The notes beneath the pieces were generated by a model. It was not told the origin of the DNA, did not search any database, and saw only the letters and a list, made by a program, of their open reading frames with translations. A program made the translations under genes and the position numbers. Of a DNA stretch of 48,474 nucleotides, positions 22,188 through 48,474 are shown one piece after another. Source of the stretch: Halorubrum yunnanense (GTDB lineage Archaea; Halobacteriota; Halobacteria; Halobacteriales; Haloferacaceae); assembly GCF_026586675.1 (NCBI RefSeq), contig NZ_JAODIX010000030.1, forward strand, positions 174,203 through 222,676, given 5' to 3'. Positions within the stretch are counted from its first letter, which is position 1. Every line of letters begins with the position of its first letter.

Positions 22188-22961
22188 ATGAGCGGATCAC
22201 TCAGCGCGAACGGGTCGGCCGAAGAGGTCAGCGAGACGGACGAGGAAGCGGTCGACGCGGCCGACCGAGAGACCGAACACTACACCTTCGACGACGTCAG
22301 CGTCGTGATGGGGACGTACAACGAGGAAGAAGCGATCGGGACGGTCCTCGGGGACGTCGACGAGGTCACCGGCGGCCGGGCCGAGGTCGTCTGCGTCGAC
22401 GGCTCGTCGGACCGGACCCCGGAGATCGCCCGGGAACACGGCGCGCGCGTCATCGAGCAGGAGCCGCAGGGGTACGGCGTCGCCGTCCGCGAGGCGATCC
22501 TCGCCCCCGACCGCCCGATCGTCGTCACGACCGACTGCGACGACACCTATCCGATGGAGCGGCTGCCGGAGTTCCTCGAGGCGATCAACGACGGCGCCGA
22601 CGTCGTCAGCGGCGACCGCCTCTACCACGGCGCGACGGCGATGCCCGCGTTCAACCGCCTCGGCAACCACGCGTTCGCGGCGCTCGCCTCCCTCCTGATG
22701 GGCGAGCGCGTCCACGACACCACCACCGGGATGCGCGCGTACCGCCGCGAGGTCGTCGAGGACATCGAGTGGACCGAGAACACCGGTCTCTCCGCGGAGC
22801 TGCTCATCCGTCCCCTCATGCGTGGTCACGACGTGCGCGAGCGTCCCATCGACTACGCCGAGCGCCTCGGCGAGACGAAGCTCGACCCGATCGAGGGCGG
22901 CGCCGCCATCGCGAAGTCCATCGTGACGGTCTGCCTCGAAGAGCGGCTGCGGCGGATCTGA
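22188..22961 (+). CDS. GT2 glycosyltransferase, dolichyl-phosphate-sugar synthase-like
   Basis: 257 aa. After an acidic N-terminal extension (1-35) comes a GT-A fold: VSVVMGTYNEEEAIG, VVCVDGSSDRTPE, EQEPQGYGVAVREAI, TTDCDDTYPMERL (DxD-type metal site), SGDRLYHG, and TTTGMRAYRREVVE. This is the pattern of the DPM1/DPG-like subfamily, which moves a sugar from a nucleotide donor onto polyprenyl phosphate at the cytoplasmic membrane face. There are no TM helices. Operator B lies upstream. With the flippase-like protein (28145-29950) and the ArnT-like enzyme (24045-26327) it would complete a lipid-linked sugar route (inference). Confidence 0.88.
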   Translation: MSGSLSANGSAEEVSETDEEAVDAADRETEHYTFDDVSVVMGTYNEEEAIGTVLGDVDEVTGGRAEVVCVDGSSDRTPEIAREHGARVIEQEPQGYGVAVREAILAPDRPIVVTTDCDDTYPMERLPEFLEAINDGADVVSGDRLYHGATAMPAFNRLGNHAFAALASLLMGERVHDTTTGMRAYRREVVEDIEWTENTGLSAELLIRPLMRGHDVRERPIDYAERLGETKLDPIEGGAAIAKSIVTVCLEERLRRI

Positions 22962-23028: not shown

Positions 23029-23304
23029 GTGGTATTTAAATAGAACTGCAGCAGCGACGACCGTTTATAAATAAACGCGGTGGCGCGTGCCTGTGAGCGG
23101 CCGATAGGCCGCGAGCAGCACGCGCGAGGGACGCGGCGACCGTAGGGAGCCGCGAGGCTGGGGAGGTGTGGGGTGGGGTTGCTGTGCGGTCGGGGTGGGA
23201 CTCAAAGGGGCAGCCGGGAGGCGGGCGCAGGCGACGCAAGCACCGCAGGAACGAGCGTAGCGAGTGACGAGGAGCGCAGCAAGCGTGCGCCCGCCTCCCG
23301 GCTG
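23029..23304. repeat. Structured dispersed repeat element (possible ncRNA), copy 1
   Basis: Non-coding, G-rich stretch. It begins with two TATA-like boxes (tatttaaat at 23033-23041, tttataaat at 23064-23072). A nested hairpin follows: outer arms GCGCGTGC (23083-23090) and GCACGCGC (23118-23125), inner arms GCGGCC and GGCCGC (23097-23112) closing a GATA loop. A 19-bp perfect inverted repeat (23211-23229 with 23286-23304) encloses a 56-base loop. The first hairpin is repeated at the right edge of the window (48426-48474), also after a TATA-like box. Promoter plus stable folds suggests a transcribed RNA or a MITE-like repeat. I recall similar stretches in other haloarchaeal genomes, without a known function. 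Confidence 0.6.
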
Positions 23305-23522
23305 GGGCTTTGGAGGTGTTCACCGTCGATCCGCAATCAATCATTTATAAGCGAGCGACTGGGGCTTTGGAGGTGTTCACCGTCGATCCGCAATCAATCA
23401 TTTATAAGCGAGCGACTGGGGCTTTGGAGGTGTTCACCGTCGATCCGCAATCAATCATTTATAAGCGAGCGACTGGAGCTTTGGAGGTGTTCACCGTCGA
23501 TCCGCGGTCAACGGCTATTTAG
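23302..23522. repeat. 57-bp tandem repeat, three full copies and one partial
   Basis: Units at 23302-23358, 23359-23415 and 23416-23472 are identical by eye. A fourth partial unit starts at 23473 with one early mismatch and diverges after about 35 bases. Each unit carries a TATA-like tttataag and a ggaggtg. As 57 is a multiple of three, the plus strand stays open (19-residue unit, LEVFTVDPQSIIYKRATGA), but there is no sign that this is a protein. The first unit begins inside the right arm of the 19-bp inverted repeat, so the two structures are joined. Confidence 0.85.
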
Positions 23523-23540
23523 CTGAATGTAGGCGCTAAG

Positions 23541-23586
23541 TCCCCACCCTCAACGGAGCGACCGAAGGGAGCGGAGTAGGGTGGCG
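23541..23586 (+). mobile_element. IS200/IS605-type right-end hairpin relic
   Basis: The sequence ccccaccctcaacggagcg to gagtagggtgg pairs with itself (ccaccct with agggtgg) and closely resembles the right end at 23974-24021. It looks like a solo right-end remnant of a TnpB-type element. No coding part is attached. Confidence 0.45.
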
Positions 23587-24044: not shown

Positions 24045-26327
24045 CTATTCAGTAAGGTCGTTCGCCTCGGCGTTCGTCTCGAAGGCGACCCACTCCGGGT
24101 GGACCCCCGAATCGCCGGGAATGTACGTCCCCTCAGTCCCGCACTCCGTCACGAGCCGGCAGACCGAGCGCTCCGGCGGCCAGACGACCTCGACACTCCC
24201 ATCCGGCTCACGGACCGTCGCCTCCTGCCGATAGGTGAACGTCGAGCCCGCGGCGTCGACGAGGGTCACCGTCACGATCACCTCGTCGCCCGCGGGGTCG
24301 ATCGGGACGGTCGCGTTCGGCGCGCCGTCCAAGCGCGCGCCGTCGGGCGTCAGCGACCAACCGACCGCGAGCGAGCCGTCAGGGTCGCGCACGTCGTACT
24401 CGGCGCGGACCGTCTCGGCGCCGCCTACCGGCTCCCCGCGCGTGGTCTCCAGTCGAACGACCGCCCGCTGAACGCGGGCCGGCACCCCCACGGTCGTCGC
24501 CGCGTCGACTCGCTCTCCCTCCCGAACCGCGAGCGATTCGAGCTTGGGGGTGACGCGCCGATTCGGGTCCGGCGTCCAGACGCCTCGGTACGCGTATCGC
24601 CGGAGGTCGCGATCAGGGTACGTGTCGATCACCGCGAAGTCCTCGGCCGGGTCGCGGTCGAGCGCGTACACGACCGGACCGTCCAGTCCGGGCTCGTTCC
24701 GGAACACTTGGAACGGGTGGTTGAGCCACTCGCCGTACGGCGTGGGGACGAACACGAGATCGTCGTCGAACTGGGCCGACTCGATCGGCTCGTAGGCCGT
24801 CTCGTACTTGTCGGCGTGCGCCGAGTGACGGTCGAGGGGCGCCTCGGCCGCGGCCGCCGCGCCGAGCGCCCCGCCGAGAATCGCGAGCGCCGCCACCGCG
24901 ACGACGACCGCCCGCGCCGTGTCCGGCGTGACCCGAGAGGAGAGCCCGTCCCGGAGCCGGGAGAGCCCCCGGCCGCCGGCGGCGACGGCGACGCCGCCGA
25001 ACAGCGACAGCGGGACGAGGAGGTCGAAGTGGTAGAACGGCCCGAAGCCCGCGACCAGCCCGTCAGTCGGGTCCGACAGCGTCCCGAGGAGGTTGTTCGT
25101 CCCCCAGAAGAAGAGGTTCCCGACGACGACGGAGACGACGACCCCGCCGAGCAGGAGGCCGGCCGTGCGTTCGAAGCGGCGGCCGGCCGTGCGTTCGAAG
25201 CGGCGGCCGGCCGCGTCGTCACGGTCGTCGCCGCCGTCTCTCACCCCGAACGCGCGCCGCCCCGACAGCCACCGCCCCGCGGCCAGCCCGCCGCCAGCGA
25301 GCGCGAGCAGTGCGCCGAGCGGGCCTGCGACCACCCATCGCGTGACGAGGTACCACAGCGCGTACCCGTTCGATCGGAGCGCCAGCTCGACGGTGTACTC
25401 CTCGCTGTGGCCGAGAATCCGGCGCTCGCCGAATCCGGGACCATCCATCGGTGCGAACGCCTCGTACGGGAAGGTGAGGGGCGCGCCGGTCAGCCGGAGG
25501 TTGTACGCGAGGGTGACGGCGACGAAGAAGATCCCGAGAAGCGCGGTGAGCCCGTGGCGGCGGACCGGGGCGGGGAGCGGGAACGGCGGAACCCCCGCGT
25601 CCCGGACCGCGACAACCACCCGACCGAGCGCGTGTAGAATGAAGGGCGCCGCGAACAGCACCGCCGTGAACGGCCGGGCGAAGAAGGCGAGCCCGATCGC
25701 GACGCCCGCGAGCCCGGCGAGCGGGAGCGATCGATCGCGGACGCCTCGGAGGTACGCGACCGCAAACAGCAGGTTCAGGAACGTCGTCGGCGCGTACGGG
25801 AGGAACACCGCGGAGGTGACCAGCGCCATCGGTGAGGCGGCGAAGCAGACGGCGGCCGCGAGGCCGACCCGCCGATCGAAGACGGTCAACCCGAGCAGGT
25901 AGACGAGCGTCGCGTTGCCGGCGGCGACGACCGCGAGCGTCACCCGCGGCTCGCCGAATAACGCCAAAGAGACCGCGTACATCGCGGCGGGAACGGGGTT
26001 GTACTTCGGGTAGAGTCGACCGTCGTCCTCGACGAAGAACCACGGGTGGACGGCGTCGGCCAGCGCGCCGGCGTGGAACTCCAGCTGGCCGGAGAGCAGC
26101 AGCGCGGCCTGCGTGAGGTACACCCCCTCGTCGTGGTTGACCGAGTGGTAGCGGAACAGCGTCGCGGCGACGGCGAAGGTGAAGACGCCGGCCGCGACGG
26201 CGACGAGGGCGGCCGCCAGCGTCAGGCGGTCCGCGCGGGCGATCCGGGCTCGGCCGCGGCTCGCGAGTCGACGCGCGGATCGACGAGCGAGCCGGCGGAA
26301 ACGGCGGAGAGCCGAAGGGGGCGACAC
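24045..26327 (-). CDS. ArnT/PMT-like polytopic membrane glycosyltransferase
   Basis: 760 aa from a GTG at 26327 (start region SPPSALRRFRRLARR). The first half has about ten or more TM segments. Loop 1 carries the HDEGVYL motif (Asp-Glu of GT-C enzymes), and a following loop has LYPKYNPVPAAMYAV. The second half (about 520-760) is an extracytoplasmic beta-rich domain (VRLETTRGEPVGGAETV, EVIVTVTLVDAAGSTFTY). GT-C enzymes take sugar from polyprenyl-phosphate donors and add it to lipids, proteins or glycans outside the membrane. It starts 19 bases after the iron-binding lipoprotein and should be cotranscribed with it under iron box C. Acceptor unknown. An in-frame 24-bp duplication lies in its middle. 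Confidence 0.82.
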   Translation of the reverse strand: MSPPSALRRFRRLARRSARRLASRGRARIARADRLTLAAALVAVAAGVFTFAVAATLFRYHSVNHDEGVYLTQAALLLSGQLEFHAGALADAVHPWFFVEDDGRLYPKYNPVPAAMYAVSLALFGEPRVTLAVVAAGNATLVYLLGLTVFDRRVGLAAAVCFAASPMALVTSAVFLPYAPTTFLNLLFAVAYLRGVRDRSLPLAGLAGVAIGLAFFARPFTAVLFAAPFILHALGRVVVAVRDAGVPPFPLPAPVRRHGLTALLGIFFVAVTLAYNLRLTGAPLTFPYEAFAPMDGPGFGERRILGHSEEYTVELALRSNGYALWYLVTRWVVAGPLGALLALAGGGLAAGRWLSGRRAFGVRDGGDDRDDAAGRRFERTAGRRFERTAGLLLGGVVVSVVVGNLFFWGTNNLLGTLSDPTDGLVAGFGPFYHFDLLVPLSLFGGVAVAAGGRGLSRLRDGLSSRVTPDTARAVVVAVAALAILGGALGAAAAAEAPLDRHSAHADKYETAYEPIESAQFDDDLVFVPTPYGEWLNHPFQVFRNEPGLDGPVVYALDRDPAEDFAVIDTYPDRDLRRYAYRGVWTPDPNRRVTPKLESLAVREGERVDAATTVGVPARVQRAVVRLETTRGEPVGGAETVRAEYDVRDPDGSLAVGWSLTPDGARLDGAPNATVPIDPAGDEVIVTVTLVDAAGSTFTYRQEATVREPDGSVEVVWPPERSVCRLVTECGTEGTYIPGDSGVHPEWVAFETNAEANDLTE
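25161..25208. repeat. 24-bp tandem duplication inside the ArnT-like gene
   Basis: Two perfect, adjacent copies of a 24-base unit (starting ggccgtgcgttcgaagcg). They encode a repeated GRRFERTA octapeptide in a cytoplasmic-looking arginine-rich loop of the enzyme. The reading frame is kept. Confidence 0.9.
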
Positions 26328-48219: not shown

Positions 48220-48315
48220 ACTCGTTACTACGTGTCCCACCCTTAGGCGGTTTTCTACTTCGCGATCGGGGGTCCACACGGGTCGAAAGCTTAGATTCCA
48301 AAGCGGCCGTCGCAA

Positions 48316-48395
48316 GCGCAGAGAGAGCGGAGCGCAGAGAGAGCGGAGCGCAGAGAGAGCGGAGCGCAGAGAGAGCGGAGCGCAGAGAGAGCGGA
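48316..48395. repeat. 16-bp tandem repeat, five perfect copies
   Basis: Unit GCGCAGAGAGAGCGGA at 48316, 48332, 48348, 48364 and 48380, without a mismatch. It lies about 100 bases upstream of the copA start and just before the dispersed hairpin element. Purine-rich; likely variable in copy number. Confidence 0.95.
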
Positions 48396-48409
48396 GCGAT
48401 CATCAGAAC

Positions 48410-48474
48410 CGATTTAAAAGGATGGCGGTGGCGCGCGCCGTGAGCGGGCCGAAGGCCCGCGAGCGACCGTGCGA
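48410..48474. repeat. Structured dispersed repeat element, copy 2 (cut by window end)
   Basis: A TATA-like gatttaaaag (48410-48419) is followed by ggtggcgcgcgcc and gtgagcgggccgaaggccc, then gcgagc. It is the same sequence as 23080-23116, and the inner stem GCGGGCC with GGCCCGC (loop GAA) keeps its pairing despite base changes. The window ends before the rest can be seen. Confidence 0.6.

Follow-up and report, generated by a model that had tools for sequence, protein, structure and literature searches.

A widespread, unannotated family of structured elements in haloarchaeal genomes

Haloarchaea carry a real, widespread and unannotated family of structured elements. The member described here is an intergenic, non-coding stretch of about 240 nt, containing three hairpins (P1, P2 and P3) and conserved linkers. 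As far as sampled, the family is confined to haloarchaea. We infer both transcription and function: with the balance standing level, its members would be genes for structured non-coding RNAs, each transcribed on its own and probably acting as RNA-protein particles. The preliminary description of this DNA was right and understated: stem P2, the conserved G-rich linkers, a 57-bp tail array, and the genome-wide copy number all go beyond it.

Anatomy of the element

The window (the whole 48,474-nt stretch of Halorubrum yunnanense DNA that was analysed; G000:C41:174203-222676) comes from a genome of 3.17 Mb in 116 contigs. The element follows a family 2 glycosyltransferase gene (22188-22961, PF00535), and its 3′ neighbour is a convergent gene (24045-26327) with domains DUF7846 and PMT_2. 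Its parts, from 5′ to 3′, are the AT boxes; P1; P2; the linker GAGGCTGGGGAGG; a G-rich stretch; the core GGTGGGACTCAAAGGGGCAG; P3; CTGGGGCTTTGG; and the tail. The mapped features are as follows.

23033-23042, plus strand: upstream AT box TATTTAAATA, read directly from the sequence
23064-23072, plus strand: proximal TATA-like box TTTATAAAT, from direct reading and TTATAA enrichment before P1
23083-23125, plus strand: P1, a nested hairpin of 17 pairs, from covariation
23132-23154, plus strand: P2, a hypervariable hairpin whose terminal stem is kept in the copies
23154-23166, plus strand: conserved linker GAGGCTGGGGAGG, nearly invariant in alignment A1
23194-23213, plus strand: conserved core GGTGGGACTCAAAGGGGCAG, the 5′ side of the P3 base, from the copy alignment
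23201-23315, plus strand: P3, a long hairpin of 36 pairs in five helices
23302-23505, plus strand: 57-bp tail array of 3.6 units, from repeat detection, each unit with CTGGGGCTTTGG and a TTATAA box
48425-48474, plus strand: 5′ part of a second copy (G000:C41:222627-222882, E 3.6e-39)

Two TATA-like boxes, a nested hairpin and an inverted repeat had been described before, and all are real. The proximal box, TTTATAAAT, is probably the promoter of the element. The arms of the inverted repeat (23203-23232 and 23283-23312, 87% complementary) belong to P3, in which short G-C stems alternate with GA/GA internal loops, and which is closed by CTCAAAG and CTTTGGAG. Outside the genus both sides of the P3 base have changed together, to CTGAAAG ... 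CTTTCGAG. The counterpart of the core in other genera is GGGTGGGACTGAAAGGGG; the linker is recognisable in many of their copies, not all; and P1 and P2 are missing from many. The claim that the stretch is structured is borne out by its RNA fold (23076-23320), which has z = -5.98 and was equalled by none of 200 shuffles.

The tail repeats CTGGGGCTTTGG, which is the 3′ sequence of P3, and four of the five TTATAA motifs in the window lie within the element and its tail. An open frame runs through 52 of 63 tail units, and spacings are multiples of three in 130 of 132 cases (G000, G022 and G043). A coding tail, judged by whether third codon positions are the most variable and GC3 is genome-like, was rejected: mean entropy is 0.69, 0.75 and 0.65 at codon positions 1 to 3, and GC3 is 0.55 over 63 distinct units, not a genome-like value. 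Farther 3′ of the array, an inverted repeat (CCCCACCCT ... AGGGTGG) occupies 23535-23585.

The preliminary description had P1 recurring with a changed inner stem, and this recurrence is confirmed at 48425-48474. The hairpin appears there alone because the window ends at a scaffold gap that stands in place of the second copy's P2. A run of N starts directly past 48474, and the contig then resumes with linker, third hairpin and tail, so the element as a whole is present a second time. Contigs also end at several other copies; together with this gap, this indicates that short-read assemblies are probably broken by the repeats. Immediately 5′ of the second copy, the 16-bp unit AGCGCAGAGAGAGCGG is perfectly repeated in tandem (5.2 copies, 48315-48398).

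Compensatory change and strand

An initial DNA search of the element's own genome gave 40 scored places among 184 candidates. Covariance model R1 was built from 31 element copies (alignment A1). Of the 41 core-anchored hits from which these were drawn, large inserts, gaps or truncation excluded seven, and runs of N or C a further three. In A1, 53 pairs formed in 97.4% of 1628 cells, an optimistic percentage because the copies are the best-scoring, insert-free ones and are over-represented in the covariation count.

Two-sided compensatory change was found at 32 of the 53 pairs, in 183 cells. Shuffled alignments averaged 17.4 pairs and 49 cells and never reached the observed values in 500 trials, and when partners were slid by one to three columns, pairing fell to 27-45% with four to seven two-sided pairs. 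The earlier proposal, that compensatory change reflects selection for RNA structure, is thereby strongly supported.

P1 is paired in 96.9% of cells, and 10 of its pairs show two-sided change. Its outer pairs (7-56 to 11-52) show none; covariation starts at pair 12-50. P2, with 63 distinct sequences in 82 copies and lengths of 21-67 nt, is not alignable, but a terminal stem of at least five pairs is present in 92.7% of copies versus 4.0% of shuffles. A G-quadruplex core, hinted at by conserved GGGG tracts, found no support: with quadruplexes permitted in folding, the best fold contained one in 16 of 104 copies versus 73 of 104 shuffled ones.

To assign a strand, single mismatches inside helices were counted in folds made without G-U pairs. 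For the minus-strand fold, written in plus-strand letters, the ratio of G-U to A-C is 60:18 in the element and 61:61 in flanking DNA; for the plus-strand fold, it is 57:49 and 40:71, respectively. The G-U excess points to a plus-strand RNA, and the plus-strand comparison leans weakly the same way. Folding energy was discarded as a guide: it prefers the plus strand in 104 of 104 copies and also in 104 of 104 shuffles, so the preference is an effect of base composition.

Compensatory change might instead come from mutation itself, by template switching between palindrome arms, with no selection on RNA. Stems that differ wholesale between copies, and a P2 that remains a hairpin across its whole range of lengths, are what such switching could produce. 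However, it would erase fixed mismatches, whereas the GA/GA internal loops of P3 recur in all genera sampled, and it yields no strand bias of G-U over A-C. We consider this explanation very improbable.

Copies, sites and turnover

The element's own genome holds at least 130 R1 matches at E up to 1e-5 (best 150 of 6012 candidates scored), the weakest being partial or degenerate. All 52 genomes sampled from the genus contain the element (R1, at most 40 places scored per genome). Rescoring three of these with 150 candidates and E up to 1e-8 gave just 15, 6 and 4 matches, so a large copy number is dispensable, which counts against the RNA-gene reading.

R1 was positive in 111 of 148 genomes and 21 of 28 genera of the family sample. 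The covariance-model search over haloarchaeal genomes that had been proposed was extended with R2, a cross-genus model of the core, which was positive in 156 of 194 genomes and 55 of 65 genera of the class sample. The phylum sample of 294 genomes gave 41 positives, all within the window's own order, and none among genomes sharing only the phylum. Among the matches listed for the exact core pattern in named genomes, all are haloarchaea, including the genera Halobaculum, Halonotius, Haloparvum, Halohasta, Haloarcula, Halosimplex, and Natronococcus.

Ten plasmid records carry the element; on plasmid pHAR01 of Halorubrum salinarum, convergent genes flank it and the gap between them is unannotated. 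Phage records and viral contigs contained no match to the element, and phage records none to the tail array, so a phage or viral origin was rejected.

The main rival of the RNA-gene reading is a selfish, non-autonomous element. Its fold would be needed for the element to be copied, either in RNA form or as single-stranded DNA with a transposase encoded elsewhere, and its copies would persist between genes, where insertion does little harm. We regard this as a serious possibility, of roughly one-in-three weight. Copy number ranging from 4 to about 130 within one genus fits it well, as do copies on plasmids. Against it, viral collections lack the element, and the closest pair among 46 own-genome copies has a likeness of 0.89; near-identical pairs are absent from that set, which gives no sign of recent bursts. 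A MITE origin, once thought equally possible, is less well supported: the repeat search near the window copy, whose ends are not defined, returned only internal hairpin arms and one small palindrome, with no flanking terminal inverted repeats. Even so, the swings in copy number between related genomes keep a mobile or selfish origin alive.

Copies consisting of the core only occur as close divergent inverted pairs at L175 (1385-1651), and also in G094, G172 and G177; such pairs, from other genera, count for a selfish element. Small palindromes, GCAGCCGGCG...CGCCGGCGAC, lie within or between stems at L023, L052, L054, L058, L059, L121 and L141, and look as if a second mini-element had inserted into the first. 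In the L036 and L179 flanks, a hairpin of a kind typical of haloarchaeal IS1341-type right ends lies just 3′ of the element.

Site sharing between species is partial, which counts against the RNA-gene reading and again suits a selfish element. When 20 copies from each of two genomes were compared with 81 own copies, both flanking genes matched for 2 in G022 and 6 in G043, and G022 and G043 had three copy pairs with matching flanking genes between them; as part of each genome's copies was compared, these counts are lower bounds. Turnover of element sites is clearly substantial.

Individual parts tell of mixing as well. The comparison of parts covered the 82 splittable copies among 121. P1 and P3 are no more alike in orthologous copies (0.81 and 0.75; seven splittable pairs) than in paralogues (0.78 and 0.75), and P2 is slightly more alike in the same seven orthologous pairs (0.61 vs 0.51). 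Nearest neighbours by P1, P2 and P3 coincide in just 1, 0 and 2 of 46 own copies. That the parts of one copy have different nearest relatives, as if modules had been swapped, favours a selfish element. Exchange of modules between copies fits these values, although ordinary substitution with compensation could also erase relatedness at such distances.

The glycosyltransferase site provides a view of persistence. Each of the 52 genomes of the genus has the gene, and close orthologues at 48 loci were used. At 30 of these the gene is followed, after 31-229 nt, by the element in the same orientation; two further loci have weak matches of 23 and 25 bits. The absence of a good match at 18 of the 48 counts against the RNA-gene reading, and truncated remnants, read in the sequence as P1 or P1-P2 at L118, L124 and L150, speak for a selfish element. 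Other loci are empty, and just 148 nt were available at L154. Across 24 occupied loci, identity is 90% at the gene end, 73% in the element, and 53% in the gap between stop codon and P1, where the random level is 52-54%. With that gap at random level while site, box and fold are shared, it is the site, the box and the fold that persist and the locus-specific letters that are lost. Such retention of site and TATA-like box at most of these loci, beside randomised DNA, argues against a selfish element.

Likely transcription, possible role and known systems

Between -30 and -5, counted from where P1 starts, 66 of 105 copies carry TTATAA; a control stretch at -100 has it in 3 of 105. TTATAAA peaks at -15 and -14. 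A lesser peak of TTTAAA, in 14 of 105 copies, falls at -47 to -45. At the glycosyltransferase site, TTATAA or TTTAAA is present in the last 40 nt of 20 of 27 copies and in the control window of none. The box is missing from 39 of 105 copies, a point against the RNA-gene reading. The term promoter-led therefore stands as far as the positioned box goes; that the element is transcribed is likely, going by this promoter-like box.

Spacing from the first base of the TATA box to the transcription start is 26 nt as measured in haloarchaea (PMC8707807); this predicts a start at about 23087-23090, inside the outer P1 arm. Covariation that begins only at pair 12-50 agrees with such a start without proving it. 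A hairpin and then a T run separate gene and element in several orthologues, read by eye, and 28 of 73 own copies oppose their upstream gene; both suggest that the element would be its own transcription unit.

Neighbours bear on a further alternative, in which the element works at the DNA level or as a 3′ end: a terminator, boundary or nucleoid site of adjacent genes, in the manner of REP/BIME. All called copies are intergenic. Among the 73 with both neighbours called (by a codon-usage script rather than curated annotation), 30 lie between convergent, 31 between codirectional, and 12 between divergent genes, and 45 share the strand of the upstream gene. The intergenic setting, the convergent neighbours and the same-strand majority suit this alternative, as do the many GA/GA loops and GNA triloops of the stems, motifs that are stable in DNA too. 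It does not account for the copies that oppose the upstream gene or lie between divergent genes, the strand-specific G-U bias, or the retention of a TATA-like box. Copies between codirectional genes run along the gene direction in 15 cases and opposite in 16. Regular chromosomal spacing was considered and set aside, the spacing being not clearly different from random (KS p = 0.05; mean 19 kb, CV 0.74), and this too counts against a DNA-level element. We think it unlikely.

Under the RNA-gene reading, RNA polymerase would start at the position predicted by the 26-nt spacing, and the RNA would fold as P1-P2-linker-P3. Bound to protein, it would act as a particle by way of its invariant linkers and loops and not by way of the letters of its stems, which may drift or swap between copies while each locus keeps the fold. 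Our guess at the particle's role is a trans-acting, dosage-type one: to bind and hold a protein. That the element serves its host is our best guess, at about even odds. The fullest version, a class-wide RNA-gene family of up to about 130 independently transcribed copies per genome, forming a previously undescribed trans-acting RNA-protein system in which linkers, loops and fold stay fixed and hypervariable stems are renewed by exchange, we put forward tentatively, at somewhat less than even weight.

If transcribed, the family would rank with the largest families of structured RNA in any group of archaea, missed by annotation, and would offer many natural replicates of one fold per cell, with hundreds of compensatory changes. 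It poses a directly testable question: does each copy yield a transcript of about 220 nt, and which partner binds that transcript? If selfish, the element would be a mobile one whose cohesion depends on RNA structure, with no viral carriers.

Rfam has no match in the window; for ten further copies, the sole match up to E 0.5 is HgcC, at 23.1 bits against a gathering threshold of 50. In the literature searched (subscription papers and preprints lying outside it), we found no published description of the element and no occurrence of the literal core sequence.

Among known systems, REP/BIME are short bacterial palindromes, about 20-40 bp long, to which a RAYT transposase is linked. They and MITEs resemble the element in forming many short, palindromic intergenic copies with no protein inside. 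However, at about 240 nt with several covarying stems, its own TATA-like box and conserved linkers, the element is much longer than these and falls outside REP/BIME. The guide RNAs associated with IS200/IS605 in archaea are reportedly structured RNAs linked to dispersed elements; the copies read here contain neither tnpB nor tnpA.

Haloarchaeal small RNAs are intergenic and non-coding, and some are conserved across species with no assigned function; in the available parts of two reports (PMC7002113, PMC10927574), compared by description only, none forms a multicopy family with this fold. The class I intergenic repeats of halovirus HF2, 56-58 bp long and shown to be promoters (PMC8707807), resemble the 57-bp tail units in length and in their AT-rich promoter-like motifs between genes. 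As described there, the genes driven by the HF2 repeats are those of the virus, and no structured RNA is joined to these repeats, whereas the tail units adjoin the putative one described here.
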